From contig CM055901.1 in NCBI GenBank assembly GCA_029582155.1, positions 46,559,228 through 46,623,227 on the forward strand: a DNA stretch of 64,000 bases, written 5' to 3'. Below are positions 21,901-61,600 of this stretch, in pieces. This stretch comes from Panopea generosa. Lineage: Eukaryota; Mollusca; Bivalvia; Adapedonta; Hiatellidae. Both the position numbers and the translations under genes were made by a program. The notes below the pieces were generated by a model that had not been told where the DNA came from, searched no databases, and saw only the letters and a program-made list of their open reading frames with translations. The first letter of the stretch is position 1. Each line of letters begins with the position of its first letter.

Positions 21901-23820
21901 GATTGTGTTGATCTCATTACCAAATCAAAAATAGGTACAGAGGAATTTGAAATGTTAATTGATGATGTTCTATATGGACTAGAAAATACAGAAATCCCTT
22001 TTGAACCAACAATGTCAAGATCAGAGGTAATCCAAGTCCAGCCATGTAAGATCTCTCAGGTAAATAACTGCCATGTTGATGACATCAGGACAGATACAGT
22101 GCTGAAAAAGGAACCTCATGCTAGTCCTTTTGTCAGTGACATGTCAGAAAATAATGAAACAGATAAGTTTGGAATAAATTTTAAAAGCATAGGGATAGAA
22201 AAAAAACCAATATTAAGCACTAAGATAGAGGAAAAAACTCCAGGAAAACAAAGTCATGATAAAATTCAGTATAAAAGTTTTAGTCGCCAATTAAAAACTA
22301 ATCCAGATGATCTCAAAATAACAGAACAAAATGTTTGTGAATCTCAGTTGGCAAATGACCCATGCAATGTACTCACAAGTAGGAAACTTTATGACAAAAA
22401 CGGTTCTCAAAGAATTGAAAGTATTAATGAAAATAGTATTAGTGTACCAGACATAGGTAATGCTGCTTCAAATAAAACTTTTTCTGAAGCATCATCTTTT
22501 CTTACAGAAGCGGAAGATTTTAAAATTGCAAATATGAAGAATAGTGAAAATTCAGTGTCTCGGGTTTCAAATATTCCCTTTGAAGTGGAGTCGTCTCTAC
22601 CGGATAAGGGAATTTTAATGGACTGTGAAGATAATGGCCTCCACAGCTTACAAAACAACCACAGTAATGATATAACGCTGAACGATTTTGATGAATTTGA
22701 ACCAATAGAATGCATCCTGGAAAGCGAACTGACCATTACAATAGATCTCAATGCAGCCAGAGTGTCATTATGCCGTGATCCAAAAAACTGTTTACAAAGA
22801 CTTCATGGTAGACTTATTAAACTTGCACATTGCTTGTTACCAAAACTGGAATTCAAAAATTACTTCTTCAAAAATATTGACAATTTGGAGTTTCTTTTGG
22901 ATTTAATGATTAAAGCCAACAGGGATCCTTATGCAGTTGACAGTGATTCAGATATGTCCAGATATGATGATGCTAGTGATATTCTCAAATCAGAACTGAC
23001 TGAAGGTCCAAATAAGACTATGATTGAGGCAAAAGTTACAAATGAGCTTATTGATAATGATATCAGTGATTGTAAATCCGAAGAAAATGTGCCTCTGCTT
23101 TTAGTAGATGAAAAATCTCAGGAGCTCTTTGAACAAGCTATAAAGTCGTGTAGGGAATCATTAAAGAAAGATGTGTTTGATTTTGAGGAAGATGATACTG
23201 ACAAAATAATGAAAAACTCTGAAGTCATCACGAGTATTGAGTCCTTGAACAAAATTGCAAAACGAAACCGTAGAAGCAGGGATTCTCGGCTAAGAAAAAG
23301 AAATGCTGATGAAAAAAGAAAACTATTTGTTCAAGAAAAAATTCAAAATAGTCATAACTCAACAATTGTGTGTCATACAAAAAAAAATGTGTCCGATATT
23401 GATAGCAAGCATGTAAATAAATCGAAACACCCAGAAAATTCAAAAGAAAGGTTTCTATCAGGGTTAAGTTTGGGTGACACTTTAGGCAGCAGTCATAAAA
23501 CAGTTGATGGAGCAAAAGATAGTGTTAAGAAGGAAAATACGATTGACATTAAAATGTTGGATGAAACAGATAAATGTAACCCTTTAAAGGCTTTTGTGGA
23601 GCATGATGATTCTTTTGATGTGAAAGTTCCAGCAAACTGTGGAGGTATGGAAGTGAAAGCATCTAGTATGTGTGATGGGACAGTGGTAGCAATTGTATCT
23701 GAAATTGAAGACCAGAAGAAGGAATCAGATGGCAGCTCAGAAACCAGGAGAAAATCTGGAGACAAAAATATTTTTGAATTGATGCAACCTTCACAGGCAG
23801 CTGAGACACCTTCACTTTAG
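15803..23820 (+). CDS. Large C2H2 zinc-finger protein (~2149 aa), two coding exons
   Basis: join(15803..15931,17500..23820). Exon 1 encodes 43 residues with finger 1 (C8, C11, H24, H28). Finger 2 spans the splice: C36 and C41 in exon 1, H54 and H58 in exon 2, with AAG|gtatta and tttcag|TCT in phase 0, which proves the join. Finger 3 is C66/C69/H82/C84 and finger 4 is C93/C96/H109/H114. The remaining ~2000 residues are mostly Lys/Ser/Glu-rich and probably disordered. They contain three KKP(L/I)FK motifs (near 722, 768, 793), a CxxC...CRC cluster (CHKCGG), an AT-hook-like RRPGRPQKAKR near 1316, an acidic tract, a SCCPCC cluster and two related helical segments near 1480-1540 and 1785-1850. The protein is probably nuclear and DNA- or chromatin-binding. 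I do not recognise the orthologue. Upstream coding exons are not needed: the ATG has a good context (cagcATGG). Confidence 0.85.
15932..17499 (+). other. Intron between zinc-finger coding exons
   Basis: A 1568-bp phase-0 intron that splits finger 2. It contains a dispersed molluscan-type segment (TGAAATAATTTATTTTCGTG, about 16466) followed by a ~23-nt C run at about 16548-16570. Nothing coding is seen. Confidence 0.8.
17500..23820 (+). CDS. Zinc-finger gene, giant terminal coding exon (6.3 kb)
   Basis: The acceptor ttgtatttcag|TCTTTTTGC is at 17499. The exon is open for 2106 codons to TAG at 23818-23820. It completes finger 2, adds fingers 3 and 4, then runs without introns to the C-terminus. 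Uninterrupted reading over 6.3 kb of AT-rich DNA is itself strong evidence for selection on the protein. Confidence 0.93.
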   Translation, partial: SFCTLSHYQGHHHLHSDYRPYKCDLCRKHFLSRLHLRDHRCSKEIKVYSCYICSVKFHRILSLSSHIVREHSQTRVCPRTDSHERNKSFKHFESRYKLKKDKNDGEASENADDEFDKDADKILLKIKAGKSMTIISPSKQSSQESKKRHLKRKTKKKHKRNEKDNRKDSIILSIKNGSVNFPKKKKSHLSMYKPLEKINGVVNRVIEPVREWSNLKLKIKMNPEPSASPTILEQMSKSPATNDLPMENVTPAVQSLSKLKKRNGVVIHKDKSGNFLSEQLQSKSKKKDRENVFDSFTDIGVWKVTPSPRTDSPLEVLKLRLSPQKPLRLEPGSDSTFESAKCLDISMKAKIDNSGEDSDLCSASPINEKEMENGMHNVNDSGIEVLSSSSCNRSNGNSVRSVALDESSPIYSHTEDSLLSFDSPLTEMHSKVEHTICHKCGGIIMEANNNTRSPGNCRCNFSNPNSPFQTPVSPVKSNLLSLDKSIEQCNMDEKVKLTSESKDMLENDRLMSESDKHVKDIKNWNSTRNEQMDEGGQSDSGDSDIMIINMIDSEADNKKLKVVSKYVQNRSDGQNINKDNKLRLKLRPRQASDSPNKKVNIDRKPDKEELSKTKFSGSEQCCSNSGNKLKTQSVVSPVIVIDADEDVNCKIITSKQPLCKVFRSLSSESENSNKDNTSVKKKPLFKPKKAEQNAINSCSEMASGINSKDILDTSLPLNEKLSTNKKPLFKKRAFSECEESSNALIVKNNKKPIFKKRNSQSLSPEIKSDSKDVKLKAENQLENSVLCNMERAAHSINSVKRAEEDTELKFQQFGKDHQGLVSSEIIEKSFKEQSTWYKNKVNYDESKSKSPLKKGLKCNKISGEKQLQNTQYKNKTDDMMGDKDTHPSTKLKTEIKTELLKDDKKLELPTTNKKLGFSKVLKENEWQNEINSEMSDKNKNTVKSEDGMSKQKLINEVKTETGCKNMNVDTNLLLPCKEQESKEKIGNIREKKQDHSNKKKVIEQIGFDEIHFENKLQMNDKNDILEFPPNKMEKGCSETIKIGNVQSGSTESKKLVEAVFLAADEDSLQQLPIIEDESISVPTKPLKSSNTSPLDLFQQQFLSFLSSNQPPHTKDNSKKLSKKRKNTEHEKLKCEDVEQEEKKKAKSRSDAKVNKNKTSEEKTKHTNLSVKEKKSDTSMSWLKIFSQDEGNESKKKFEDTGNTDEATEFTDDLALINKKMDISDQEENSLDVDDVFESEKLSILQPKEEVHAAKDIDTLNNCAALISNADKRRPGRPQKAKRSNPKLCDTISRPQKAKRSNPKLSDTVYKHRHDSDSDFSYYSSDADTLDLISCNGNHSNSDPDFNPYHDSDEDEFAPAKLVRRRESIRRKSKQIFHGNSDEESKETILDENHVNVLERTRRTKQGRKSCCPCCLGSPRKSSRDHHSHRHRKQNYKLPRNYKQFVKSTVKLLELQGKIHELFLTLFPDCVDLITKSKIGTEEFEMLIDDVLYGLENTEIPFEPTMSRSEVIQVQPCKISQVNNCHVDDIRTDTVLKKEPHASPFVSDMSENNETDKFGINFKSIGIEKKPILSTKIEEKTPGKQSHDKIQYKSFSRQLKTNPDDLKITEQNVCESQLANDPCNVLTSRKLYDKNGSQRIESINENSISVPDIGNAASNKTFSEASSFLTEAEDFKIANMKNSENSVSRVSNIPFEVESSLPDKGILMDCEDNGLHSLQNNHSNDITLNDFDEFEPIECILESELTITIDLNAARVSLCRDPKNCLQRLHGRLIKLAHCLLPKLEFKNYFFKNIDNLEFLLDLMIKANRDPYAVDSDSDMSRYDDASDILKSELTEGPNKTMIEAKVTNELIDNDISDCKSEENVPLLLVDEKSQELFEQAIKSCRESLKKDVFDFEEDDTDKIMKNSEVITSIESLNKIAKRNRRSRDSRLRKRNADEKRKLFVQEKIQNSHNSTIVCHTKKNVSDIDSKHVNKSKHPENSKERFLSGLSLGDTLGSSHKTVDGAKDSVKKENTIDIKMLDETDKCNPLKAFVEHDDSFDVKVPANCGGMEVKASSMCDGTVVAIVSEIEDQKKESDGSSETRRKSGDKNIFELMQPSQAAETPSL

Positions 23821-36239: not shown

Positions 36240-39200
36240 TAGAAATTTAGTATTGAAATAATACCAGTCTAAAGGCAAAATACTTAATACAGAAACATGT
36301 ACTCTGGATCACTAAGGAACAAAGTCAATTTAGTATTAAACTAATACTAGTCTACAGGAAATATACTTAATACAGAAACATGTACTCTGGACCACTGAGG
36401 AAATAAGTCAATTTAGCATTAAACTAATACTAGTCTACAGGAAATATACTTAATACAGAAACATGAACTCTGGATCACTGAGGAATAAAGTCAATTAAGT
36501 ATTAAACTAAAACTAGTCTACAGGAAATATACTTAATACAGAAACATGAACTCTTGACCACTGAGGAATAAAGTCAATTTAGTATTAAAACTAATACTAG
36601 TCTACAGGAAATATACTTAATACAGAAACATGAACTCTGGATCACTGAGGAATAAAGTCAATTAAGTATTAAACTAAAACAAGTCTACAGGAAATATACT
36701 AACTACAGAATCATGTACTTTGGATCACTGAGGAATAAAGTCAATTTAGCATTAAACTAAAACTAGTCTACAGGAAATATACTAAATACAGAAACATGTA
36801 CTCTGGATCACTGAAGAATAAAGTCAATTAAGTATTAAGCTAAAACTAGTCTTCAGGAAATATACTTAATACAGAAACATGAACTCTGGATCACTGAGGA
36901 ATAAAGTCAGTTAAGTATTAAACTAAAACAAGTCTACAGGAAATATACTTAATACAGAAACATGAACTCTGGATCACTGAGGAATAAAGTCAATTTAGTA
37001 TTAAACTAAAACTAGTCTACAGGAAATGTACTAAATACAGAAACATGAATTTGGACCACTGAGGAATAAAGTCAATTTATTATTAAACTAAAACTAGTCT
37101 ACAGGAAATGTACTAAATACAGAAACATGAACTCTGGACCACTGAGGAATAAAGTCAATTTATTATTAAACTAAAACTAGTCTACAGGAAATATACTTAA
37201 TACAGAAACATGTACCCTGACCACGGAGGAGTAAAGTTAATTTAGTATTAAACTAAAACTAGTCTACAGGAAATATACTTAATACAGAAACATTTCTCTG
37301 GACCACTGAGGAATAAAGTCATTTTAAAATAAAATAATACTAGTTTGCAGCATTTATACTTAATACAGAAACGTGTACTCTGGACCACAGAGGAATAAAG
37401 TAAATTCAGCATTAAACTTATACTAGTCTACAGGAAATATACTTGATACAGAAACATGTACTCTGGACCATTGAGGGATAAAGTCACTTAAGCATTAAAC
37501 TAATACTAGTCTACAGGGAATATATTTAATACAGAAACATTAACTCTGGACCACTGAGTAATAAAGTCAAGTTTAGTATTAAACTAAAACAAGTCTATAG
37601 GAAATATACTTAATACAGAAACATGTACTCTGGACCACGGAGGAGTAAAGTCAATTTAGTATTAAACTAAAACTAGTCTACAGGAAATATACTTAATACA
37701 GAAACATTTCTCTGGACCACTGAGGAATAAAGTCATTTTAAAATGAAATAATACTAGTTTGCAGCATTTATACTTAATACAGAAACGTGTACTCTGGACC
37801 ACAGAGAAATAAAGTAAATTCAGCATTAAACTTATACTAGTCTACAGGAAATATACTTGATACAGAAACATGTACTATGGATCACTGAGGGATAAAGTCA
37901 CTTTAGCATTAAACTAATACTATTCTACAGAAAATATATTAATACAGAAACATGTACTCTGGATGACTGAGGTATAAAGTCAATTGAGTATTAAACTAAT
38001 ACTAGTCTATTGGAAATATATTAATACAGAAACATGACTGAGGTATAAAGTCAATTGAGTATTAAACTAATACTAGTCTATTGGAAATATACTTAATACA
38101 GAAACATGTACTCTGGACCACTGAGAATAAAGTTAATTAAGCATTAAATTAAAACAAGTCTACAGGAAATATACTTAATACAGAAACATGAACTCTTGAC
38201 CACTGAGGAATAAAGTCAATTTAGTATTAAACAAATACTAGTCTACAGGAAATATACTTAATACAGAAACATGAACTCTGGATCACTGAGGAATAAAGTC
38301 AATTAAGTATTAAACTAAAACTAGTCTACAGGAAATATACTTAATACAGAAACATGAACTCTTGACCACTGAGGAATAAAGTCAATTTAGTATTAAACTA
38401 ATACTAGTCTACAGGAAATATACTTAACACAAATACATTTACTCTGGACCACTGAGGAATAAAGTCAATTTAGTATTAAACTAATACTAGTCTACAGGAA
38501 ATATACTTAATACAGAAACATGTACTCTGGATCACTGAGGAATAAAGTCAATTAAGTATTAAACTAAAATTGGTCTACAGGAAATATACTTAATACAGAA
38601 ACATGTACTCTGGATCACTGAGGAATAAAGTCAATTAAGTATTAAACTAAAACACGTCTACAGGAAATATATTTAATACAGAAGCATGTACTCTGGACCA
38701 CTGAGGAATAAAGATAATTTAGCATTAAACTAATACTAGTCTACAGGAAATATACTTAAGACAGAAACATGAACTCTGGACCACCGAGGAATAAAGTCAA
38801 TTTATTATTAAACTAATACTAGTCTACAGGAAATATACTTAATACAGAAACATGAACTCTGAATCACTGAGGAATAAAGTCAATTAAGTATTAAACTAAA
38901 ACAAGTCTACAGGAAATATACTTAATACAGAAACATGTACTCTGGACCACTAAGGAATAAAGATAATTTAGCATTAAACTAATACTAGTCTACAGGAAAT
39001 ATACTTAATTCAGAAACATGAACTCTTGACCACTGAGGAATAAAGTCAATTTAGTATTAAACTAATACTAGTCTACAGGAAATATACTTAACAGAAATAC
39101 ATTTACTCTGGACCACTGAGGAATAAAGTCAATTTAGTATTAAACTAATACTAGTCTACAGGAAATATACTTAATACAGAAACATGTACTCTGGATCACT

Positions 39201-42200
39201 GAGGAATAAAGTCAATTAAGTATTAAACTAAAATTGGTCTACAGGAAATATACTTAATACAGAAACATGTACTCTGGATCACTGAGGAATAAAGTCAATT
39301 AAGTATTAAACTAAAACACGTCTACAGGAAATATATTTAATACAGAAGCATGTACTCTGGACCACTGAGGAATAAAGATAATTTAGCATTAAACTAATAC
39401 TAGTCTACAGGAAATATACTTAATACAGAAACATGAACTCTGGACCACCGAGGAATAAAGTCAATTTATTATTAAACTAATACTAGTCTACAGGAAATAT
39501 ACTTAATACAGAAACATGAACTCTGAATCACTGAGGAATAAAGTCAATTAAGTATTAAACTAAAACAAGTCTACAGGAAATATACTTAATACAGAAACAT
39601 GTACTCTGGACCACTAAGGAATAAAGATAATTTAGCATTAAACTAATACTAGTCTACAGGAAATATACTTAATTCAGAAACATGAACTCTTGACCACTGA
39701 GGAATAAAGTCAATTTAGTATTAAACTAATACTAGTCTACAGGAAATATACTTAACACAAATACATTTACTCTGGACCACTGAGGAATAAAGTCAATTTA
39801 GTATTAAACTAATACTAGTCTACAGGAAATATACTTAATACAGAAACATGTACTCTGGATCACTGAGGAATAAAGTCAATTAAGTATTAAACTAAAATTG
39901 GTCTACAGGAAATATACTTAATACAGAAACATGTACTCTGGATCACTGAGGAATAAAGTCAATTAAGTATTAAACTAAAACACGTCTACAGGAAATATAT
40001 TTAATACAGAAGCATGTACTCTGGACCACTGAGGAATAAAGATAATTTAGCATTGAACTAATACTAGTCTACAGGAAATATACTTAATACAGAAACATGA
40101 ACTCTGGACCATCGAGGAATAAAGTCAATTTATTATTAAACTAATACTAGTATACAGGAAATATACTTAATACAGAAACATGAACTCTGAATCACTGAGG
40201 AATAAAGTCAATTAAGTATTAAACTAAAACAAGTCTACAGGAAATATACTTAATACAGAAACATGTACTCTGGACCACTGAGGAATAAAGATAATTTAGC
40301 ATTAAACTAATACTAGTCTACAGGAAATATACTTAATTCAGAAACATGAACTCTTGACCACTGAGGAATAAAGTCAATTTAGTATTAAACTAATACTAGT
40401 CTACAGGAAATATACTTAATACAGAAACATGAACTCTGGATCACTGAGGAATAAAGTCAATTAAGTATTAAACTAAAACTAGTCTACAGGAAATATACTT
40501 AATACAGAAACATGAACTCATACTTAATACAGAAACATGAACTCTGGATCACTGAGGAATAAAGTCAATTAAGTATTAAACTAAAACTAGTCTACAGGAA
40601 ATATACTTAATACAGAAACATGAACTCTTGACCACTGAGGAATAAAGTCAATTTAGTATTAAACTAAAACTAGTCTACAGGAAATATACTAAATACAGAA
40701 TCATGTACTCTGGATCACTGAGGAATAAAGTCAATTTAGCATTAAACTAAAACTAGTCTACAGGAAATATCCTAAACACAGAAACATGTACTCTGGACCC
40801 TTGAGGAATAAAGTCAATTTAGTATTAAACTAATACTAGTCTACAGGAAATATACTTAACACAGAAACATTTACTCTGGACCACTGAGGAATAAAGTCAA
40901 TTTAGTATTAAACTAATACTAGTCTACAGGAAATATACTTAATACAGAAACATGAACTCTGGATCACTGAGGAATAAAGTCAATTAAGTATTAAACTAAA
41001 ACAAGTCTACAGGAAATATACTTAATACAGAAACATGTACTCTGGACCACTGAGGAATAAGATAATTTAGCATTAAACTAATACTAGTCTACAGGAAATA
41101 TACTTAATACAGAAACATGAACTCTTGTCACTGAGGAATAAAGTCAATTTAGTATTAAACTAATACTAGGATACAGGAAATATACTTAATACAGAAACAT
41201 GAACTCTGGATCACTTAGGAATAAAGTCAGTTTAGTATTAAACTAAAACAAGTCTACAGGAAATATACTAAATACAGAAACATGAACTCTGGATCACTGA
41301 GGAATAAAGTCAATTAAGTATTAAACTAAAACAAGTCTACAGGAAATGTACTTAATACAGAAACATGAACTCTGGATCACTGAGGAATAAAGTCAATTTA
41401 GTATTAAACTAAAACTCATCTACAGGAAATGTACTAAATACAGAAACATGAATTTGGACCACTGAGGAATAAAGTCAATTTATTATTAAACTAAAACTAG
41501 TCTACAGGAAATGTACTAAATACAGAAACATGAACTCTGGACCACTGAGGAATAAAGTCAATTTATTATTAAACTACAACTAGTCTACAGGAAATACACT
41601 TAATACAGAAACATGAACTCTTGACCACTGAGGAATAAAGTCAATTTAGTATTGAACTAATACTAGTCTACAGGGAATATACTTAATACAGAAACATTAA
41701 CTCTGGACCACTGAGTAATAAAGTCAAGTTAAGTATTAAACTAAAACAAGTCTATAGGAAATATACTTAATACAGAAACATGTACTCTGGACCATGGAGG
41801 AGTAAAGTCAATTTAGTATTAAACTAAAACTAGTCTACAGGAAATATACTTGATACAGAAACATGTACTCTGGACCATTAAGGGATAAAGTCACTTTAGT
41901 ATTAAACTAATACTAGTCTACAGTGAATATACTTAATACAGAAACATTAACTCTGGACCACTGAGTAATAAAGTCAAGTTTAGTATTAAACTAAAACAAG
42001 TCTATAGGAAATATACTTAATACAGAAACATGTACTCTGGACCACGGAGGAGTAAAGTCAATTTAATATTAAACTAAAACTAGTCTACAGGAAATATACT
42101 TAATACAGAAACATTTCTCTGGACCACTGAGGGTTAAAGTCACTTTAGCATTAAACTAATACTATTCTACAGAAAATATATTAATACAGAAACATGTACT

Positions 42201-45200
42201 CTGGATCACTGAGGAATAAAGTCAATTTAGTATTAAACTAATACTAGTCTACAGGGAATATACTTAATACAGAAACATGTACTCTGGATCACTGAGGTAT
42301 AAAGTCACTTTAGCATTAAACTAATACTATTCTACAGAAAATATATAAATACAGAAACATGTACACTGGATCACTGAGGTATAAAGTCAATTGAGTATTA
42401 AACTAATACTAGTCTATTGGAAATATATTAATACAGAAACATGTACTCTGGATCACTGAGGTATAAAGTCAATTGAGTATTAAACTAATACGAGTCTATT
42501 GGAAATATACTTAATACAGAAACATGTACTCTGGACCACTGAGAATAAAGTTAATTGAGCATTAAATTAAAACAAGTCTACAGGAAATATACTTATACAG
42601 AAACATGTACTCTGGATCACTGAGGAATAAAGATAATTGGGCATTAAACAAATACTAGTCTACAGGAAATATAATAATACAGATACATGAACTCTGGATC
42701 ATTGAGGAATAAAGTTAATTGAGCATTAAACAAATACTAGTCTACAGGAAATATACTTAATACAGAAAAACGTACTCTGGATCACTGAGGAATAAAGTTA
42801 ATTGAGCATTAAACTAATACTAGTCTACAGGGAATATACTTCATACAGAAAAACATACTTTAGATCACTGAGGAATAAAGCTTATTGGGCATTTAACAAA
42901 AACTAGTCAACAGGATATATACTAACACAAAAACATGTTCTCTGGATCACTGAGGAATAAAGTTAACTGAGCATTAAACAAATACTAGTCTACCTGAAAT
43001 ATACTTAATACAGAAACATGTACTCTGGATCACTGAGGAATAAAGTTAATTTGGCATTAAACAAATACTTATCTACCTGAAATATACTTAATACAGAAAC
43101 ATGTACTCTGGATCACTGAGGAATAAAGTTAATTGGGCATTAAACAAATACTAGTCTACAGGAAATATACTTAATACAGAAAAATGTACTCTGGATCACC
43201 GAGGAATAAAGTTAATTAAGTATTAAACTAATACTAGTCTACAGGAAATATACTTAATACAAAAAACATACTCTGGATCACTGAGGAATAAAGCTTATTG
43301 GGCATTTAACAAAAACTAGTCAACAGGATATATACTAACACAGAAACATGTACTCTGGATCACTGAGAATAAAGTTAATTGAGCATTAAACTAAAACTAA
43401 TCTACAGGAAATATACTAATACAGAAACATGTACTCTGGATCACTGAGGAATAAAGTTAACTGAGCATTAAACAAATACTAGTCTACCTGAAATATACTT
43501 AATACAGAATCATGTTCTCTGGATCACTGAGGAATAAAGTTAATTGAGCATTAAACTAAAACTAGTCTACAGGAAATATACTTAATACAGAAACATGTAC
43601 TCTGGATCACTGAGGAATAAAGTTAACTGAGCATTAAACTAAAACTAGTCTACAGGAAATATACTTAATACAGAAACATGTACTCTGGATCACTGAGGAA
43701 TAAAGTTAACTGAGCATTAAACAAATACTAGTCTACCTGAAATATACTTAATACAGTATCATGTTCTCTGGATCACTGAGGAATAAAGTTAATTGAGCAT
43801 TAAACTAAAACTAGTCTACAGGAAATATACTTAATACAGAAACATGTACTCTGGATCACTGAGGAATAAAGTTAACTGAGCATTAAACTAAAACTAGTCT
43901 ACAGGAAATATACTTAATACAGAAACATGTACTCTGGATCACTGAGGAATAAAGTTAATTGAGCATTAAACTAAAACTAGTCTACAGGAAATATACTTAA
44001 TACAGAAACATGTACTCTGGATCACTGAGGAATAAAGTTAATTGAGCATTAAACTAAAACTAGTCTACAGGAAATATACTTAATACAGAAACATGTACTC
44101 TGGATCACTGAGGAATAAAGTTAACTGAGCATTAAACAAATACTAGTCTACCTGAAATATACTTAATACAGAATCATGTTCTCTGGATCACTGAGGAATA
44201 AAGTTAATTGAGCATTAAACTAAAACTAGTCTACAGGAAATATACTTAATACAGAAACATGTACTCTGGATCACTGAGGAATAAAGTTAACTGAGCATTA
44301 AACTAAAACTAGTCTACAGGAAATATACTTAATACAGAAACATGTACTCTGGATCACTGAGGAATAAAGTTAATTGAGCATTAAACTAAAACTAGTCTAC
44401 AGGAAATATACTTAATACAGAAACATGTACTCTGGATCACTGAGGAATAAAGTTAATTGAGCATTAAACTAAAACTAGTCTACAGGAAATATACTTAATA
44501 CAGAAACATGTACTCTGGATCACTGAGGAATAAAGTTAACTGAGCATTAAACAAATACTAGTCTACCTGAAATATACTTAATACAGAAAAATGTACTCTG
44601 GATCACTGAGGAATAAACTTAACTGAGCATTAAACAAATACTAGTCTACCTGAAATATACTTAATACAGAAACATGTGTTCTGGATCACTGAGGAATAAA
44701 GTTAACTGAGCATTAAACTAAAACTAACTACAGGAAATATACTTAATACAGAATCATGCTCTCAGGATCACTGAGGAATAAAGTTAATTGAGCATTAAAC
44801 AAATACTAGTCTACCTGAAATATACTTAATACAGAAACATGTACTCTGGATCACTGAGGAATAAAGTTAACTGAGCATTAAACAAATACTAGTCTACCTG
44901 AAATATACTTAATACAGAAACATGTACTCTGGATCACTAAGGAATAAAGTTAACTGAGCATTAAACTAAAACTAACTACAGGAAATATACTTAATACAGA
45001 ATCATGCTCTCAGGATCACTGAGGAATAAAGTTAATTGAGCATTAAACAAATACTTGTCAACAGGACATATACTTAATACAGAAAAAACGTACTCTGGAT
45101 CACTGAGGTATAAAGTTAACTGAGCATTAAACAAATACTAGTCTACCTGAAATATACTTAATACAGAAACATGTACTCTGGATCACTGAGGAATAAAGTT

Positions 45201-47504
45201 AATTGAGCATTAAACCAATACTTGTCAACAGGACATATACTTAATACAGAAAAACGTACTCTGGATCACTGAGGTATAAAGTTAACTGAGCATTAAACAA
45301 ATACTAGTCTACCTGAAATATACTTAATACAGAAACATGTACTCTGGATCACTGAGGAATAAAGTTAATTGAGCATTAAACCAATACTTGTCAACAGGAC
45401 ATATACTTAATACAGAAAAACGTACTCTGGATCACTGAGGTATAAAGTTAATTTAGTATTAAACTAATACTAGTCTACAGGAAATATACTTAATACAAAA
45501 AACGTACTCTGGATCACTGAGGAATAAAGTTAATTTAGCATTAAACTAATTCTAGTCTACAGGAAATATATTAATACAGAATCATGTACTCTGGATCACT
45601 GAGGTATAAAATCAATTTAGTATTAAACTAATACTAGTCCATTGGAAATATACTAATGCAGAAACATGTACTCTGGACCACTGAAAATAAAGTTAATTGA
45701 GCATTAAACTAAAACAAGTCTACAGGAAATATACTTATACAGAAACATGAACTCTGGATCACTGAGGAATAAAGATAATTGGGCATTAAACAAATATTAG
45801 TCTACAGGAAATATACTAATACAGAAACATGAACTCTGGATCACTGAGGAATAAAGTTAATTGAGCATTAAACAAATACTAGTCTACAGGAAATATACTT
45901 AATACAGAAACATGTACTCTGGATCACTGAGGAATAAAGTTAATTGAGCATTAAATTAAAACAAGTCTACAGGAAATATACTTATACAGAAACATGAACT
46001 CTGGATCACTGAGGAATAAAGTTAATTGAGCATTAAATTAAAACAAGTCTACAGGAAATATACTTATACAGAAACATGAACTCTGGATCACTGAGGAATA
46101 AAGATAATTGGGCATTAAACAAATACTAGTCTACAGGAAATATACTAATACAGAAACATGAACTCTGGATCACTGAGGAATAAAGTTAATTGAGCATTAA
46201 ACAAATACTAGTCTACAGGAAATATACTTAATACAGAAACATGTACTCAGGATCACTGAGGAATAAAGTTAATTGAGCATTAAACAAATACTAGTCTACA
46301 GGAAATATACTTAATACAGAAACATGTACTCTGGATCACTGAGGAATAAAGTTAACTGAGCATTAAACAAATACTAGTCTACAGGAAATATACTTATACA
46401 GAAACATGAACTCTGGATCACTGAGGAATAAAGATAATTGGGCATTAAACAAATACTTATCTACCTGAAATATACTTAATACAGAAACATGTACTCTGGA
46501 TCACTGAGGAATAAAGTTAATTGAGCATTAAACAAATACTAGTCTACAGGAAATATACTTAATACAGAAACATGTACTCTGGATCACTGAGGAATAAAGT
46601 TAATTGAGCATTAAATTAAAACAAGTCTACAGGAAATATACTTATACAGAAACATGAACTCTGGATCACTGAGGAATAAAGATAATTGGGCATTAAACAA
46701 ATACTAGTCTACAGGAAATATACTAATACAGAAACATGAACTCTGGATCACTGAGGAATAAAGTTAATTGAGCATTAAACAAATACTAGTCTACAGGTAA
46801 TATACTTAATACAGAAACATGTACTCTGGATCACTGAGGAATAAAGTTAATTGAGCATTAAACAAATACTAGTCTACAGGAAATATATTAATACAGAATC
46901 ATGTACTCTGGATCACTGAGGTATAAAATCAGTTTAGTATTAAACTAATACTAGTCCATTGGAAATATACTAATACAGAAACATGTACTCTGGACCACTG
47001 AAAATAAAGTTAATTGAGCATTAAATTAAAACAAGTCTACAGGAAATATACTTATACAGAAACATGAACTCTGGATCACTGAGGAATAAAGATAATTGGG
47101 CATTAAACAAATACTAGTCTACAGGAAATATACTAATACAGAAACATGAACTCTGGATCACTGAGGAATAAAGTTAATTGAGCATTAAACAAATACTAGT
47201 CTACAGGAAATATACTTAATACAGAAACATGTACTCTGGATCACTGAGGAATAAAGTTAATTGAGCATTAAACTAATACTAGTCTACAGGGAATAAACTT
47301 AATACAGAAAAACATACTTTGGATCACTGAGGATTAAAGCTTATTGGGCATTTAACAAAAACTAGTCAACAGGATATATACTAACACAGAAACATGTACT
47401 CTGGATCACTGAAAATAAAGTTAATTGAGCATTAAACTAAAACTAATCTACAGGAAATATACTAATACAGAAACATGTACTCTGGATCACTGAGGAATAA
47501 AGAC
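36240..47504. repeat. Satellite with 83-bp unit (array 2), ~11.3 kb
   Basis: About 135 copies of an 83-bp unit running GTATTAAACTAATACTAGTC / TACAGGAAATATACTTAATA / CAGAAACATGTACTCTGGAT / CACTGAGGAATAAAGTCAAT. Higher-order structure is visible. An 8-mer of about 663 bp repeats at about 38431, 39095 and 39758 (marker AAATACATTTACTCTGG). In 42.6-47.4 kb most units carry AAGTTAATTGAGCATTAAA in place of AAGTCAATTTAGTATTAAA, with a marker ATCATGTTCTCTGG recurring every 3-5 units (43508, 43756, 44170). The right end abuts a SINE fragment. Non-coding, with frequent stops in all frames. Confidence 0.96.
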
Positions 47505-47893
47505 GCAGTTCCAGTTTTATTGGTGGAGGAATAAATCTGGCCATAACCACCGTCCTTCAGCAAGTAACTGGCAAACTCTCTCACATAAAGGTTTTGCTAC
47601 AAATAGTTCTTCATAGGCTTAGTTCATTCTTAATTTGAAACAAAGTGACATAAAATAAAGTGAGCGAATAACGCCCATTCTGGCTTCTTGTTTTTTAATG
47701 GAGTTTAATGCCATTTTCAACATATAAAAGGTTCTTTAGGTTATGACATACTAGTATCCAGTTTTATTGAAAGAGGAAGACCTCAGAATGAATATGAGGA
47801 GAACCACTGTCCTCATGCATGTAACTGGCAAACATTTTCAAATAAAGATTTTGGACAAGACTCTAACCCCCTACCTCTTAGTCCACTCCGCTA
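47505..47893 (-). mobile_element. Two SINE fragments (S5, S6) between satellites
   Basis: 47505-47600 carries body sequence only (TCCAGTTTTATTGGTGGAGG, AGTAACTGGCAAACTCTCTC). 47697-47893 carries tail to head (TTTAATGCCATTTTCAACAT, GAGGAAGACCTCAGAATGAA, GACTCTAACCCCCTACCTC). The head of S6 runs directly into the first unit of array 3 at TTAGTCCACTCCGCTATC. Confidence 0.7.
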
Positions 47894-50800
47894 TCTTGTT
47901 CATTTGACTTTCATACATTAACACAATTAACAATAGCTGCTGCTAGAAGCAGCTATGGGTTAGTCAAATACGCTATCTTGTTCATTTCACTTTCGTACAT
48001 TAACACATAAACAATTGCTGCTGCTGGAAGTAGCTCTGGGTTAGTCCACTCAGCTATCTTGTTTATTTGACTTTCGTACATTAACACAATAAACAATTGC
48101 TGCTGCTGGAAGCAGCTATGGGTTGGTCCACTCTGCTATCTTGTTCATTTGACTTTCATACATTAACAAAATAAACAATAACTGCTGCTAGAAGCAGCTT
48201 TGGGTTAGTCCACTCCGCTATCTTGTTTATTTGACTTTCATACATTAACACAATAAACAATTGCTGCTGCTGGAAGCAGCTATGGGTTGGTCCACTCCGC
48301 TATCTTGTTCAGTTGACTTTCGTACATTAACACAATAAACAATTGCTGCTGCTGGAAGCAGCTATGGGTTGGTCCACTCTGCTATCTTGTTCATTTGACT
48401 TTCATACATTAACAAAATAAACAGTAACTGCTGCTAGAAGCAGCTTTGGGTTAGTCCACTCCGCTATCTTGTTCATTTGACTTTCATACATTAACACAAT
48501 AAACAATAGCTGCTGCTGGAAGCAGCTATGGGTTGGTCCACTCCGCTATCTTGTTCAGTTGACTTTCATACATTAACACAATAAACAATTGCTGCTGCTA
48601 GAAGCAGCTATGGGTTGGTCCACTCTGCTATCTTGTTCATTTGACTTTCATACATTAACACAATAAACAACTGCTGCTGCTATAAGCAGCTATGGGTTGG
48701 TCCAATCCGCTATCTTGTTCATTTGACTTTCGTACATTAACACAATAAACAATTGCTGCTGCTGGAAGCAGCTATGGGTTGGTCCACTCCGCTATCTTGT
48801 TCATTTGACTTTCATACATTAACAAAATAAACAATAGCTGCTGCTGGAAGCAGCTATCGGTTCGTCCACTCCGTTATCTTCTTCATTTGACTTTCATACA
48901 TTAACACAATAAACAATTGCTACTGCTGGAAGCAGCTATTGGTTGGTCCACTCCGCTATCTTGTTCATTTGACTTTCATACATTAACACAATAAACAATA
49001 GCTGCTGCTAGAATCAGCTATGGGTTAGTCCACTCCGCTATCTTGTTCATTTGACTTTCATACTTTAACAAAATAAACAATAGCTGCTGCTAGAAGCAGC
49101 TTTGGGTTAGTCCACTCTGCTATCTTGTTCATTTGACTTTCATACATTTACAAAATAAACAATTGCTGCTGCTAGAAGCAGCTATGGGTTAGTCCACTCT
49201 GCTATCTTGTTCATTTGACTTTCATACATTAACACATTTAACAATAGCTGCTGCTTGAAGCAGCTTTGGGTTAGTTCACTCTTCTATATTGTTCATTTGA
49301 CTTTCATACATTAACACAATAAATAATTGCTGCTGCTAGAAGCAGCTATGGGTTAGTCAACTCCGCTATCTTGTTCATTTGACTTTCATACATTAACACA
49401 ATAAACAATAGCTGCTGCTAGAAGCAGCTATGGGTTAGTCCAATCTGCTATCTTGTTCATTTGACTTTCATACATTAACAAAATAAACAATTGCTGCTGC
49501 TAGAAGCAGCTATGGGTTAGTCAACTCCGCTATCTTGTTCATTTGACTTTCATACATTAACACAATAAACAATAGCTGCTGCTAGAAGCAGCTATGGGTT
49601 AGTCCACTCTGCTATCTTGTTCATTTGACTTTCATACATTAACAAAATAAACAATTGCTGCTGCTAGAAGCAGCTATGGGTTAGTCCACTCTGCTATCTT
49701 GTTCATTTGACTTTCATACATTAACAAAATAAACAATAACTGCTGCTAGAAGCAGCTTTGGGTTGGTCCACTCTGCTATCTTGTTCATTTGACTTTCATA
49801 CATTAACAAAATAATCAATTGCTGCTGCTACAAGCAGCTATGGGTTAGTCCACTCTGCTATCTTGTTCATTTGACTTTCATACATTAACAAACTAAACAA
49901 TAGCTGCTGCTACAAGCAGCTATGGGTTAGTCCACTCTGCTATCTTGTTCATTTGATCTTGTTCATTTGACTTTCATACATTAACAAAATAAACAATAGC
50001 TGCTGATAGAAGCAGCTATGGGTTAGTTAACTCCGCTATCTTGTTCATTTGACTTTCATACATTAACACAATAAACAATAGCTGCTGCTAGAAGCAGCTT
50101 TGGGTTAGTCCACTCTGCTACATGTTCATTCGACTTTCATACATTAACAAAATAAACAATTGCTGCTGCTAGAAGCAGCTATGGGTGAGTCCACTCTGCT
50201 ATCTTGATCATTTGACTTTCATACATTAACAAAATAAACAATTGCTGCTGCTAGAAGCAGCTTTGGGTTAGTCAACTCCACTATCTTGTTCATTTGACTT
50301 TTATACATTAACACAATAAACAATAGCTGCTGCTAGAAGCAGCTATGGGTTAGTTCAATCCGCTATCTTGTTCATTTGACTTTCATACATTAATACAATA
50401 AACAATTGCTGCTGCTAGAAGCAGCTACGGGTTAGTCCACTCTGCTATCTTGTTCATTTGACTTTCATACATTAACACAATAAACAATAGCTGCTGCTAG
50501 AAGCAGCTATGGGTTAGTCCACTCTGCTATCTTGTTCATTTGACTTTCATACATTAACACAATAAACAATAACTGCTGCTAGAAGCAGCTTTGGGTTAGT
50601 CCAATCTGCTATCTTGTTCATTTGACTTTCATACATTAACACAATAAACAATTGCTGCTGCTGGAAGCAGCTATGGGTTAGTCCACTCTGCTATCTTGTT
50701 CATTTGACTTTCATACATTAATACAATAAACAATAGCTGCTGCTTGAAGCAGCTTTGGGTTAGTCCACTCAGCTATCTTGTTCATTTGACTTTCATACAT

Positions 50801-51988
50801 TAACACAATAAACAATAGCTGCTGCTAGAAGCAGCTTTGGGTTAGTCCAATCTGCTATCTTGTTCATTTGACTTTCATACATTAACACAATAAACAATTG
50901 CTGCTGCTGGAAGCAGCTATGGGTTAGTCCACTCTGCTATCTTGTTCATTTGACTTTCATACATTAATACAATAAACAATAGCTGCTGCTTGAAGCAGCT
51001 TTGGGTTAGTCCACTCAGCTATATTGTTCATTTGACTTTCATACATTAACACAATAAACAATAGCTGCTGCTAGAAGCAGCTTTGGGTTAGTCCAATCTG
51101 CTATCTTGTTCATTTGACTTTCATACATTAACACAATAAACAATTGCTGCTGCTGGAAGCAGCTATGGGTTAGTCCACTCTGCTATCTTGTTCATTTGAC
51201 TTTCATACATTAATACAATAAACAATAGCTGCTGCTTGAAGCAGCTTTGGGTTAGTCCACTCAGCTATATTGTTCATTTGACTTTCATACATTAACACAA
51301 TAAACAATAGCTGCTGCTAGAAGCAGCTTTGGGTTAGTCCAATCTGCTATCTTGTTCATTTGACTTTCATACATTAACACAATAAACAATGGTTGCTGCT
51401 TGAAGCAGCTTTGGGTTAGTCCACACTTCTTTATTGTTCATTTGACTTTCATACATTAACACAATAAACAATAGCTGCTGCTAGAAACAGCTACGGGTTA
51501 GTCCAATCTGCTATCTTGTTTATTTGACTTTCATACATTAACACAAAAAACAATTGCTGCTGCTAGAAACAGCTACGGGTTAGTCCACTCTGCTATCTTG
51601 TTCATTTGACTTTCATACATTAACACAAAAAACAATTGCTGCTGCTAGAAGCAGCTATGGGTTAGTCCACTCTGCTATATTGTTCATTTGACTTTCATAC
51701 ATTAACACAATAAACAATTGCTGCTGCTAGAAGCAGCTATGGGTTGGTCCACTCAGCTATCTTGTTTATTTGACTTTCATACAGTAACACAATAAACAAT
51801 GATGCTGCTAGAAGCAGCTATGGGTTAGTCCACTCTGCTATCTTGATCATTTGACTTTCATACATTAACAAAATAAACAATTGCTGCTGCTAGAAGCAGC
51901 TATGGGTTGGTCGACTCTGCTATCTTGTTCATTTGACTTTCATACATTAACACATAAACAATTGCTGCTGCTAGAAGCAGCTATGGGT
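47890..51988. repeat. Satellite with 82-bp unit (array 3), ~4.1 kb
   Basis: About 50 copies of an 82-bp unit: CACTCTGCTATCTTGTTCAT / TTGACTTTCATACATTAACA / CAATAAACAATTGCTGCTGC / TAGAAGCAGCTATGGGTTAG / TC. Each unit can form a hairpin at AGCTGCTGCTAGAAGCAGCT. A multi-unit block with the variant GCTTGAAGCAGCTTTGGG recurs at about 50740, 50985 and 51235, indicating a ~245-bp (3-mer) higher-order unit. A 15-bp local slip (ATCTTGTTCATTTG doubled) is seen at about 49950. Confidence 0.96.
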
Positions 51989-53283
51989 TTTATTGAATAC
52001 TGAAAGATTGGTAAGAAAATAAGAAGAAACACAAATACAGATTTATTGTTTAATTTTTAACTGGGCTTGGCAGCCAGAAATCATGGGAGATAGGCATTGT
52101 ATCAACAAGCTCTTAGATTTGTTTTTTTTACTTTCTGTTTGCATGTGTACATACAACTCTGATAATAGAGAAAAGGAAATGTAACTCGATAAAGCAAGAG
52201 TTCTCTGTTAAAAATTAAAAAGGAAGGTAATTCAATTCTGAAAATTTTTTTTTCTAATATTTCAGTACTCTCTCTTGTTTATAAATGTATAGCTTTTAGA
52301 GATAATTGTCTCTAGTGTTGTATATAATTTCTTTGAGAAAACTCCGAAATTTGTTGAATTAAACTGCCTTTACTGACATAATTTTCTTTTCAGAATTGAT
52401 TATCTCCCTTTATTACTCAAGAAGATCTTTTTTTCAAGATTCATCAACCAGTTTAAAGTGTTATGCATACTGCCAATATGAGAATAAATATTTATAGGAA
52501 TGATATCTCCATGCAAGTGTTGACTTGAAGCACAAACAGGTAATTTTTAAGTTTGTAAGTAACTATTATAACACATGATTTCAAACGCATCGTGTTTTCA
52601 TAATATTCTAATATCAACTACCCACTATTCTCTAACATTCATATAAAATGTAACCATGGCATGTATATGTTTATAAATAATTACCAAATCTTGGGTAAAT
52701 GAAGGTGTGTGAGTAAAAGAAACGCTACCAAATTTCTTCACAATAAATTTTTTTTCCCACAATTCCTAGCATATATCACAGAATGACTGGCTGATGGATT
52801 TCAAGTGACATGAAATGAAGTCACATGATTTTGTTACTATTTTAAACCATGATTTGAAACTAACTTGTATCTAAACTATCTAATTGTAAAATCCAACCTA
52901 TTTGAAACGAACTTCATTATATAGTTATTAACTTGACTCTATATTCAATAAAACTCTCCTTAAAAGCATTTTTAATACACACGATGAAATGTTGATGACG
53001 AGTTGACACTTTCAATGTACCTAATCTCTACTATATCATTCATTAAACACAACAACATTATTGTGTAGAAGATATTACAAGAATGATGTATCCTTTATGA
53101 AATTTAATGTATTAAAAAAAAAAAACAACATAAGAAATATACCTGGCTAGTAATTATATATAGTTTTTATTGTCAAGTATGTATTTGCAATATCAAACCT
53201 CTCTGAATAATAACTTGGTACACAGACACTTGATACACAATTATCAATTTATTATTCAATTTACTATCAAATACTTTACTTTG
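51989..53283. other. No gene seen
   Basis: AT-rich sequence with no ORF, element or repeat I can support. Confidence 0.6.
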
Positions 53284-55626: not shown

Positions 55627-58600
55627 CTGATGAATACAGAAAATTAACAATATTGATATTTTCTAAATATTTATTACAGTAATTATTATTTTCAAATGGA
55701 TTAACATACAAAAACTACAATTATTTTGCTGCCCATCCCTCACTTACAAACTTGTATCTTCATAAGAAAACATTATGTCTATAAAGATTATATCAGAATG
55801 GTTGGGTTGTGTAACATCAAAAAAATATATGGGTTGCTTAAAGGCATAAACGGGATTCAATCCTAGAATTTCAGGTGACTGTTATGAGCCTCATATCCAG
55901 AGTTCATGCTAGACACACACTGTGAGATTATTGGATTATTGAGCTCAGGATCAGACATTGCAAGGCTAGTATCTGTTTACTCTAAATCATTCAACTGAAG
56001 TTTGTAAAACAAAATACCTGCATATACATATTAAAACCTGGAAGAATAATTACCTGTGATTTTTCTACAGTTGCAGTCAGTTTGTCACACATGGGACTTA
56101 GATCCAAGCCCTTTTCTCTCTCCATATCACCCTGTCTAAAGAGCTCCATCATGATTCTATCTACCCATTTCTTGTAAAGGTCAAGGGGCTTTGTTGGGTT
56201 GCCAAGGTCCGCACAATGAACCATATTCTGTAATACCTGGAATGCATAATGATATAAACTATGGTTAGATATATTCCTTTTTCTTCATGCAATATATGAA
56301 TATAGAACTTTTAAAAATATAATCTCAAACAGAAATTCTTCAAGTTTTGTTTCAACAGGAACATGGTACTAAACCCTATTCAGCAGTTAATGAAACAAAT
56401 ACATTGAAATTCTGTTATCTGCAAAAATTATATAAACATTTTATCTTTCATTGAAGAAAACAAGTTAAAGATTTCATAGAGATGCTCACCTGTATTCTAT
56501 CTGTGTAGTTGTCCAGCAGCAATACCCCGGAGCCGGCAACTTTCTTTGTTTCCACCATGGTTTTCAAGTCAGCCAGCAAGCTCATATGCTTCGTCATGTC
56601 CGTTGCTAAAACCATGTCGATGACCATCTTTCGTAAGGTTTGTCGTTGTTTTTTGGAAAGGTTCAAGAATATGTCACAATTGTCCTCCTGCAGCAGTTTG
56701 AATGCAACGGCCAGATGATGGTTCTCCAGCACAGACTCGTCATTGTACATCAACGCCAGCTCAGAACCTGTAAGTACACAGTGAAAGTTTAGTTTCTGTG
56801 TCCATGCTGAAGTCAAAGATTAAGTTGCTGTATTTCTATTATAAGTATAGGAACTACTTCCTACATCAGTGTTGAAATATGCTGCACAAACAACTTGTTA
56901 ATTTAGTGTTTATGCTAAAGTCGGACCTGTTTTGATACCAAGCATTAGCCCAATAAATTAAGAGTGATATAAACAAAACATGGCTTGTCTCATTAGCACA
57001 GGAAGTTTACAAGTCTGTGTGAAATAAGATGGCACTTAGTACAGTTCTGCACTACAAATGGGACAAATTACTTGATCTTCTCAACAAAGTTGTAACATGT
57101 TCAATTTAGTATGTCAATTTTTACATGACATGATGCACGCAGACATAAAAAAACAAGTTAACAGCACGTAGAAAAACAGGCCATCCATAACTGATTTCAA
57201 CTTACATGGGACTGTTTTTGTGTATATAGATAAACAAATATATTGTTTTTGTTTTAAAATGAGCCAGCAAAAATGATTTACAAGCCTCTATTACGTAAAA
57301 TATTTGATTTATTATATTACATGTATTACAAGTGCAATAAACACAAACAAATAATTAATGATTAATATGTTTATACAACCAGAATTTTTTTCTGTCATTA
57401 TCTGTTGTCAGAATAAGCATTAATAACCTTTAAATCTCTGCATAATTAAATGAAATCACTCAGACTTAAACATTAAACTTATGTTTATGCTACGTTCAAC
57501 AACATAACTACTTTGTTTACTTCAAAGTTGAATTCATTATGATAAATAGTACTAGAGGACTGGAGCGTATGGGTTTTCAAAACACAGGCCTCTCACACTG
57601 ACACTTTGACAACATCTGATGACCTGATTAGAAGATGATTTAATAGCCGACTTTGTTTTATATTGATTATCAGTTGCCCAAATGAGAACTATTATTATGT
57701 AGGAATATTGAATTGTGGGATAGATCAGGGTAGCAGTCAAAACATCATAAAATACAGTGGGTTTTAATTTGGCGTTTATAAAGTAAAGATTTAATCTATA
57801 CAAATGACACCTAATTTTTGCCCAATTACACATTGTGTGAAAAACAATAACAATTTTATGGCTAGCTACCCAGAATTCAATACTGCCTTTGGAATAAGAG
57901 TTTATATGTTGTAGGTGAGAAGAGTGTATAATTACTGACGTCATAACCATACTGAAATATGGTCCTCTAAAATGATATGTCCAAATAAGTTCTTGTTCCC
58001 CATTTCTAGACAATTCTTAATGGTATGCGATCGTAATCTAACGGGTTGAATGCCAAACTGTTGCAACTTTTCATGTTCATATGAAGAAACAACTGTATTG
58101 CAATAGACCATGTAATTATGTTCCAATTAAGTCTATGACCTCCAAATATAAAGACAATTTTTTGCTGTAATTAAAAAAAACAACATTTCTGTGGTAGTCA
58201 CTTACTAGTATTCACAAGGAACTGATTGGACACCCCTGGGTGATCCACGTCATGAATGGCACTAGCGAATATGGCAGCAAGAATCTCCAGGTCTGTAAAC
58301 ACGTTCTGAAAAATAGAAAGCTATCAATCAAACATAACCTAACAAACAGAACACATTCTCAAAAATGTATACAACCCCAGCAAAAAAACCCCAACAAAAC
58401 ATGAATGCTTTTTGGAACAAAATAAGAAATTGCATATTCATATGAAAAAGTCATATAATATTGAATGATACAGATATTTTATCTTTTTAATCAGGAATTA
58501 GAAATTGAATAAAAAATATAAAAAAAAACATGCTGAAATATTATTTCTCAATCTCTAGTAAAACCCACATTTGTTTTTTATTTGTTCAAGTGTCTTAATT

Positions 58601-61600
58601 GGCCTTTTTAAGTTTCTATTCACACAGGAACAATATGCAACACACAATTTAATTCTTTTGATAATGAGCAACCGTCTTGTGTTGGCAGATGAATATTGAG
58701 TTTAATCACAAACATTTCCTTTGCTTTTTAATGACAAATATATTTTTGTGCATTTGACAACATGTCAAAGAAGCACTCATCAAAACCACACTTCAGTTCA
58801 GCTGTGTGAAGTAAACAGGGCATAGCTAAATCAGTTATTGACACTTAGTGAAACACAACCAACTCTAACTGAATTTTACCAACATGTGGTACTTAATCAT
58901 GTGTTAGTCCCAGGAAAACAGATAATAGGCAAGACCTGTTTGCTTATAAACAGCTACATTTTTCTCTGTATTTTTTTATCAAACATCATGCTAATGGAAT
59001 ATCCGAGACATTGGCTAAAAATAAACCAATCAATCCATTTCAGTACAGAATTAGAATATAAACTTAAGATAAACTTAAGATTAAATTTTTATTTTTATCA
59101 CAAAAATACTATAGTCAAGTTCATGTAATTTAGGGGGGACAACTTTCTATTCTACATAACAAAAACTTGAAATGGAATCTTCTACATTGTGGGTGTGCAT
59201 TAAGTTGGTTTCTAGTTCCAGGACTAATTGTGACCACACTTTCTAAAATACCACAGTCGAATGAAATACATGAAAGACAACTCTTGTCAAACAAATGTTA
59301 CAAGCAAATAACCTGCCTCTAATGCTGTAGCTGAGAGTAATACAGGGTATATAACTCTTGTCAAACCAATGTCAGAGGAAGATAACCTATCTCTAATGCT
59401 GGAGATGAGAGTCAGGATACTTAACTCTTGTCAAACCAATATTACAGGGAGATAACCTACCTTTAATGCTGGAGCTGAGAGTCAGGATACTTAACTCTTG
59501 TCAAACTAATATTGCAGGGAGATAACCTACCTCTAATGCTGGAGATGAGAGTCAGGATACTTAACTCTTGTCAAACCAATATTACAGGGAGATAACCTAC
59601 CTTTAATGCTGGAGCTGAGAGTCAGGATACTTAACTCTTGTCAAACTAATATTGCAGGGAGATAACCTACCTCTAATGCTGGAGATGAGAGTCAGGATAC
59701 TTAACTCTTGTCAAACTAATATTGCAGGGAGATAACCTACCTCTAATGCTGGAGATGAGAGTCAGGATACTTAACTCTTGTCAAACCAATATTACAGGGA
59801 GATAACATACCTCTAATGCTGAAGCTGAGAGTCAGGATACTTAACTCTTATCAAACCAATATTTCAGAGAGATAACATACCTCTAATGCTGGAGCTGTGA
59901 GTCAGGATACTTAACTCTTGTCAAACCAATATTACAGGGAGATAACCTACCTCTAATGCTGGAGCTGAGAGTAATACATGTGTGGACTGAGTAACGTCTG
60001 CTGCATGAATACAATTGTGGTATGGAACTTCGCGATGATAGTGATCCTCTAAATGCATCAAGTAGGTCACCAACATCGTAGTGGGAATATTAAACTGTTG
60101 GCATAAATTTCTATCCTGCAATTTACAAAATGATATATATGTTAACTGTTCTTGAAAATGAAGCTAGCCAATAGATTACCATGGCAGACTGACAGACTGA
60201 CATACTAGTATTTAACTGTCTATAATTAGAGTACATTAATCGGCTAGAAGTTAACAATTATCGGTAGTGGTCTTCCATCATCATCTGATTAAAACTTTTT
60301 TCATATAACAAGTTAATTAACATCAGAAAATATTTATTAATGGCAATTAAAGCATGATGAAATATCTTAATTAGATTCAATATGACACTACAACAATAAA
60401 TAAAACAATGGAAGTTAATAAAATTTACCCCATTGGTGCAAAAAGGTACCAAGTGCCTTCTTATTTCATATACACTTGGTATGTTATTGCACTAATAGGA
60501 CATAATATGGTCCTTGTAGTTTATAACACACTTACCTGAAATATTTTATATGTGATACAGGTGAGAGGCCTATTATTTGAGAATTCAGCAATTTTGAACA
60601 CGTCAACACCCCATCTGTCTATCTCATTCAACAGCTGCAAAAATGTAGAAGACAAATCATGAGTACAACATGCACAATCTGCAGTTCTTGTAAAAAAGGT
60701 GCATTTGAGTATTTCATATTTTGTATTCAATTTTGTCAAATCAATGCATATAGTATATCTTAATATTAAAGGAAACAATTTGTGAGCACAGTCTGTAGTT
60801 CTTGTAGAAAAAACAAAAACAAAAAAAAACAAAAATCCATTGATCTGTTATTTCATGTTATTTTCTCGCTTGGATTTTGGTCAAATCAATACAGAACATA
60901 TCTTGATAAATCTTAAGATAAGCAGTTGCCTGCTGCTTCAATGTGTTTGCAGACTTTTTATTGCCAGGCAACCACAATAACTGCAGTAGACTATAATTCA
61001 AACAGTGTACAACCAAAAATGATGTTCTCTATTAACAACTGTTGTGGTCTCTTGCCAATGTTACACTGTTACACCCTACTGCCTCAGTGAACATGTCGGG
61101 AACAGAATCATATTTTAATTGGCAGTGAGAAACAGGAAAAACAGTAATTCATTCATATAGAATCAAAACAACTTAATATAGAACATAAAACACAAGTGCT
61201 TTGTTAAATATCGAATCACCCACTGACTTCACATCTACCGCTGTATGAATGAGCAGCCAGTTTCAAAACGATAGCACAATCTTACATGTCAATCAAATGC
61301 TCAAGAGTTTAAATAAGAAAGTATCTTTTGCATTTGATTTTGGCAATAATTTGAAAAAGAAAAAAAAATGTCTCTCTTTTTTTTTTAAAAATAATAATCA
61401 TCTCTGATATTAGAACTCATTTAATTAACTAGACTTACCTATAAGACAAACTATGGTTAATGAACACGTATACATCTATGAAAGACTTACCTGTCCTAAT
61501 TCTTCCTTATGTGGTGTTTCAACCCCAAACTTTGGCACAGTACCCGTGAAGCTGTTTGTGTGTTTTAGTTTACGTACACCTGTGATCTGAGTCATTGGGC

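Follow-up and report, generated by a model that had tools for sequence, protein, structure and literature searches.

A minisatellite that carries a PDE4 5' splice site into the following intron in a bivalve, and arrays of the same kind at exon edges of other genes

Choice among identical 5' splice sites is a classic question, asked mostly with two-site constructs. A PDE4 gene of the bivalve Panopea generosa raises it in a genome, since a minisatellite at the end of one of its catalytic-domain exons places nine further copies of the donor in the intron. How did this array arise, which donor is likely to be taken, and are the extra copies of any use? The gene lies on the reverse strand of the window, that is, the whole stretch of DNA analysed (64,000 nucleotides; contig CM055901.1, positions 46,559,228 to 46,623,227), and the following features, numbered by window position, are considered below.

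59951..60115, reverse strand: PDE4 catalytic-domain exon of 165 nt, 55 codons (phmmer; tblastn)
59945..59950, reverse strand: authentic 5' splice site GTAGGT, preceded by GAG; joining it to 58305 restores the PDE4 frame
58306..59950, reverse strand: host intron of 1645 nt, containing the nine decoys
58206..58305, reverse strand: next PDE4 exon (tblastn; 3' end set by eye from the sequence)
59279..59972, reverse strand: minisatellite of period 70 with the authentic junction and nine decoy units (TRF, unit alignment)
59875..59880, reverse strand: decoy 1, GTATGT, U1 duplex -6.4 (authentic -9.9)
59805..59810, reverse strand: decoy 2, GTATGT, U1 duplex -6.4
59735..59740, reverse strand: decoy 3, GTAGGT, 9-mer identical to the authentic one, U1 duplex -9.9
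59665..59670, reverse strand: decoy 4, GTAGGT, 9-mer identical to the authentic one, U1 duplex -9.9
59595..59600, reverse strand: decoy 5, AAG before GTAGGT, U1 duplex -9.8
59525..59530, reverse strand: decoy 6, GTAGGT, 9-mer identical to the authentic one, U1 duplex -9.9
59455..59460, reverse strand: decoy 7, AAG before GTAGGT, U1 duplex -9.8
59385..59390, reverse strand: decoy 8, GT changed to AT, U1 duplex -4.0
59311..59316, reverse strand: decoy 9, GT changed to GC, in the most diverged unit with a longer exon-matching piece (TGTATTACTCTCAG...), U1 duplex -5.5

The product of the 165-nt exon (DRNLCQQF...LLSAPALE) matches PDE4D over all 55 residues (phmmer, E 8e-21), and the tblastn support for the PDE4 exons was obtained with a PDE4D probe. 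Joining position 59951 to 58305 gives a PDE4 protein without interruption and restores the conserved sequence.

At this exon TRF, run on the window, reports a single array (59279-59972, period 70, 9.9 copies, 91% matches, score 1114), which is real and beyond chance. Each 70-bp unit consists of approximately 22 exonic nucleotides, the donor and about 48 intronic nucleotides, and the authentic junction is the outermost unit on the exon side. Donor-like junctions follow positions 59951 (authentic), 59881, 59811, 59741, 59671, 59601, 59531, 59461, 59391 and 59317. The earlier note, made from the sequence of the window, had described a ladder of near-identical decoys behind one authentic donor, and this is what we find: nine decoys, seven of them with an intact GT, the exceptions being 59391 (AT) and 59317 (GC). 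Its nine 70-bp units are correct as to the number of decoy copies and not quite as to spacing, which comprises eight steps of 70 bp and a final step of 74. The 831-base stretch containing the array was found at a single place in the whole assembly (1.47 Gb, 39 contigs) by a search that ignores very common words, and a dispersed repeat or transposon is, within that search, ruled out.

Conserved PDE4 coding sequence makes up the exonic part of the repeat, and hence the copying went from the exon into the intron. According to the unit alignment, units 3, 4 and 6 do not differ at any of their 70 nt, nor do units 5 and 7 from each other, while the outermost unit, u9 at 59317, is the most diverged one, being 74-81% identical to the others. 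It retains a longer exon-matching piece (TGTATTACTCTCAGCT.CAGCATTAGAG), 4 nt of which are absent from the inner unit aligned beside it, and this fits the last step of 74 instead of 70. Homogenised inner units and a diverged outer one represent ordinary minisatellite turnover. We infer that the minisatellite (a "mirage") began as a tandem duplication of the end of the exon together with the donor and the start of the intron, with subsequent amplification by unequal exchange or slippage. The first copy would have remained attached to the intact exon, so that all later copies would end up in the intron and be spliced out, provided that the exon-side donor is taken.

The array is a single instance of a wider feature of this genome, contrary to the uniqueness that the earlier note implied. 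TRF was run in the sense orientation on 90 loci, the best 30 matches each to PDEase_I (39 listed), myosin head (81) and kinesin (126). Five loci were dropped before counting: L004, whose match starts within the L019 gene's array; L066, apparently a duplicate of L065; and L003, L005 and L017, which belong to the PDE4 gene itself. Among the remaining 85, which are top matches of three families rather than a random sample and many of which overlap or are near copies, arrays that start within the exon and repeat the donor were found at six loci (7%, 95% interval 2.6-14.7%), namely L009 (two copies only), L013, L019, L039, L057 and L080, from PDE, myosin and kinesin genes. Thus six further donors, five of them with many copies, are arranged like that of PDE4. 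Three of the 85 loci (L019, L044 and L056) have arrays that run into the exon at its acceptor end. Within 60 nt of the 3' end of the exon matches there are five array left ends, where the intron background predicts 1.57 (P 0.02), and three right ends fall in the first 60 nt with 1.77 expected (P 0.26), the 60-nt limits having been set after the data had been seen and match ends serving as a proxy for exon ends; the left end of the L019 array, at -69, is outside this count. It is safe to state that boundary-spanning arrays are tolerated, because array ends are not depleted at exon edges.

Several of the sampled loci deserve separate description. L019, a PDE gene on C17 also represented by L004, has an exon with arrays at both sides. 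Its acceptor array has 49-bp units with AG in 30 of the 30 readable copies, and its donor array, with units of 63/84 bp, reaches to about 10 nt short of the acceptor of the next exon, so that the whole intron seems to be built from copies of its own splice junction. L080 is a kinesin gene on C11 with a donor array of 43-bp units. Arrays with a period of at least 10 span 10.8% of the 90 loci, overlaps being counted twice. The muscle myosin exons L046 and L043 match best the PDB chains that we take to be from squid and scallop (up to 167.5 and 156.7 bits, respectively), followed by another chain, 3jbh (134.7 and 133.0 bits), and by what is presumably human cardiac myosin (approximately 126-128 bits). 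This ranking suggests a molluscan genome and not that of an amphioxus; to our knowledge, other lophotrochozoan myosins are absent from the compared PDB chains.

What would the use of a decoy do? At any of the nine PDE4 decoys translation would continue in frame into added intron sequence (VGYLPVILV) and stop 30 nt past the exon; the expectation that decoy use damages the catalytic domain is thus borne out, and a translatable isoform from a repeat donor is not predicted, the early stop being the same for all decoys. Since PDE4 protein would be made only if the exon-side copy is used, splicing presumably takes the first donor. An in-frame stop lies 4-102 nt past the authentic donor in all seven donor arrays, the two-copy L009 included. 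Two decoys precede it: the first L019 decoy, at 63 nt, is in frame and would insert 21 codons ahead of the stop at 102, and the first L039 decoy, at 41 nt, is frame-shifted and lies ahead of the stop at 45.

Donor strength gives no general rule for such a choice. That decoys are weaker than the authentic donor holds for the two PDE4 decoys nearest the exon and is contradicted by L013, L057 and L080, where decoys exceed the authentic donor in U1 pairing, and marginally by L039, where they do so by 0.1 kcal/mol; in PDE4 and L019 decoys equal it. In L080, for example, two decoys have the sequence GTAAGT, whose U1 pairing is better than that of the authentic GTTAGT. Because decoys are as strong as the authentic donor or stronger, it must be position or exon definition, and not donor strength, that selects the exon-side copy. 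RNA structure was also considered as a means of concealing the decoys and rejected. Three local folds at the PDE4 array are unremarkable (z -0.30, 0.65 and -0.10), and the predicted openness of the GT in a local pairing estimate, 0.041 unpaired for the authentic site against 0.004-0.024 for the five strong decoys, differs too little to be relied on; the two weak decoys have 0.090 and 0.042 and the AT unit has 0.544. In PDE4, U1 strength and folding may nevertheless help the first donor in these models, given the lower strength of the two nearest decoys and a GT at the authentic site that is slightly less paired than at the five strong ones.

Taken together, the observations make it highly probable that the PDE4 array is a mirage, produced as minisatellite growth extended over a splice junction and tolerated there, in which the exon-side donor is used by virtue of position and not of strength. 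The choice would most simply be made by exon definition, with the donor paired with the acceptor across the short exon, and position-based choice would make boundary duplications nearly neutral.

Another explanation is that repeat number tunes the gene: some transcripts would use a decoy, gain the stop and be degraded, so that copy number would set PDE4 output. Five PDE4 decoys within 0.1 kcal/mol of the authentic donor in U1 pairing and the identical early stop in every decoy product are consistent with this, and repeat units are reported to act as donors in human IFI6 (6-16), whose minisatellite has multiple splice donor sites and for which three mRNA species are reported (Turri et al. 1995, as cited in a later paper). 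The PDE4 array likewise supplies several donors in tandem units. It differs from IFI6 in that any decoy would bring a stop, if a translatable isoform is indeed a defining trait of IFI6, as an isoform statement in the citing paper leads us to assume. However, the two exon-proximal decoys are weaker (-6.4 vs -9.9), and the recurrence of such arrays in other genes points to a general process rather than a mechanism peculiar to PDE4. We regard tuning as decidedly improbable.

If decoys were harmful, their GTs should decay faster than other alignment columns, and they do not; decoy GTs are not weeded out. By wraparound alignment GT is intact in 93 of the 96 decoys of six donor arrays (PDE4 7/9, L013 28/28, L019 17/17, L039 4/4, L057 3/4, L080 34/34). 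Local alignment can trim decayed end units and is thereby biased toward intact GTs; one more L019 unit, beyond the alignment end, has lost its GT, so that 93/97 is the fairer total. At the acceptor side AG is intact in 36 of the 37 readable copies of three arrays (30/30, 4/5 and 2/2).

This retention bears on a further possibility, namely that the decoys are kept as useful U1 landing sites which, for example, shield the intron from premature polyadenylation or strengthen exon recognition. Counting authentic copies, three of 102 GTs were lost, compared to an average loss of 16.9 when one dinucleotide is drawn at random from each array (P 0.013; 0.027 once the additional lost L019 unit is included, 0.048 by a rank test and 0.015 without CpG-like columns), and other GTs within the same units are more variable. 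Donor GTs may therefore be retained better than arbitrary dinucleotides, which is a lead and not a result and may count against pure neutrality. The signal, however, comes largely from L013 (P 0.115 when this array is left out), the complete donor 9-mer reaches just P 0.059, the alignment may omit decayed end units such as the one in the L019 gene, and PDE4 runs in the opposite direction, having lost two of nine. Landing sites for U1 therefore have, in our opinion, only a slim chance of being the explanation.

Still less probable is recursive or mini-exon splicing, in which the AG|GT of each unit would serve as a zero-length exon and the intron would be removed in 70-nt steps or as a whole. 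AG does stand immediately before GT in all seven GT units, and CTGAC lies approximately 21 nt upstream of AG|GT in the inner units. On the other hand, the pyrimidine stretch is short, and AG|GT is missing from the arrays of L013 (CAA|GT) and L080 (AGG|GT). The acceptor-like CTCTCAG, which had been claimed for each unit, is exact in four of the nine decoy units only (59811, 59601, 59461 and 59317); 59881 has CTCACAG and the remaining four have CTCTCAT. A second AG, as CTCCAG or a one-base variant of it, is present in all nine. A 14-nt mini-exon would lead to a stop at the fourth codon and an 8-nt one to a stop as well, both counting against this route, and a 2-nt mini-exon would shift the frame and meet a stop later. 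Finally, an assembly artefact is barely conceivable: the array was read in one assembly only, but its units differ by substitutions in an ordered pattern, and arrays with other units occur at other genes on other contigs.

Arrays of this class are known from amphioxus, where, according to the parts of two papers available to us (PMC3087553, PMC3902484), tandem repeats across exon-intron boundaries go by the name of mirages. Such repeats are found at either end of exons in genes such as Adh3, troponin C, globins and PGBD5; in Adh3 the units are of 10-72 bp; many units contain AG/GT and copy number varies; and the Adh3 data together with globin RT-PCR suggest undisturbed splicing. By its anatomy, as read from the DNA, the PDE4 array is a mirage. 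Each unit combines an exon edge with the splice signal and adjoining intron sequence, the signal is usable in many but not all units (7/9 GT), inner units are homogenised and the edge unit is diverged, and several genes of one genome are involved. It differs in having a mollusc host and in affecting PDE4, and it is known here from sequence alone. We found no published PDE4 case of a boundary-spanning array in a literature search that was not PDE4-specific.

Other systems share single features with the PDE4 array, as far as the accessible portions of the respective reports describe them. In humans, internal tandem repeats located at exon-intron boundaries within segmental duplications are linked to new introns and alternative transcripts in recent paralogs (PMC2812944), and there too a minisatellite expands at a boundary. 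In the Rogers model introns are gained by tandem duplication of AGGT segments (PMC4974935). The duplicated PDE4 segment does contain AG|GT, but the duplication spans an existing exon-intron junction, so that the intron grows and none is created; a duplication inside an exon giving rise to a new intron was not seen. Among invertebrates, an intron of the abalone TSSK1-like gene has a minisatellite with a 27-bp unit whose repeat number differs among individuals (PMC6905558), which is likewise an intronic minisatellite of a mollusc gene, with no mention of a splice-site span in the portion at hand; microsatellites are present in cone snail introns (PMC3862624) and minisatellites in earthworm first introns (PMC12783039). 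The available portions of these three reports describe no repeated splice sites. Mollusca seems to be a new phylum for mirages. No comparable frequency of boundary arrays was found stated in the portions of the literature searched. As to position, SRSF1 favours the intron-proximal and hnRNP A1 the intron-distal 5' splice site, according to the part of PMC5585400 that was available.

The window contains further repeats and open frames. Downstream of PDE4 lie two arrays, one of 83-bp units (36244-47502; 11 kb, approximately 135 copies) and one of 82-bp units (47878-51989; 4 kb, 50 copies), and positions 3-3413 hold about 120 copies of a 28-bp unit, partly with a higher-order period of 87 bp. On the forward strand, an open frame of 2131 codons (17425-23820) shows, by eye, zinc-finger-like residues close to its beginning and has no Pfam match at E 0.001. 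On the reverse strand, 9532-10167 encodes a zf-RVT (reverse-transcriptase-associated zinc-binding) domain (E 1e-8) and is probably part of a retroelement.

A broader picture, in which this mollusc has several percent of its exon edges fused to minisatellites, always takes the exon-side copy and keeps the decoys by selection, for example as U1 landing sites, appears unlikely to us as a whole. If true, it would mean that near-identical donors or acceptors compete in thousands of introns outside cephalochordates. With the PDE4 array read as a tolerated mirage, the genome provides natural donor ladders in conserved genes; each of the six larger arrays has between 4 and 34 readable decoys. If the exon-side copy alone is used in them, donor strength would drop out as a factor and leave position or exon definition to decide the choice. 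The PDE4 array illustrates how an intron may grow by copying its own splice site, and it would carry mirages from amphioxus into another phylum.
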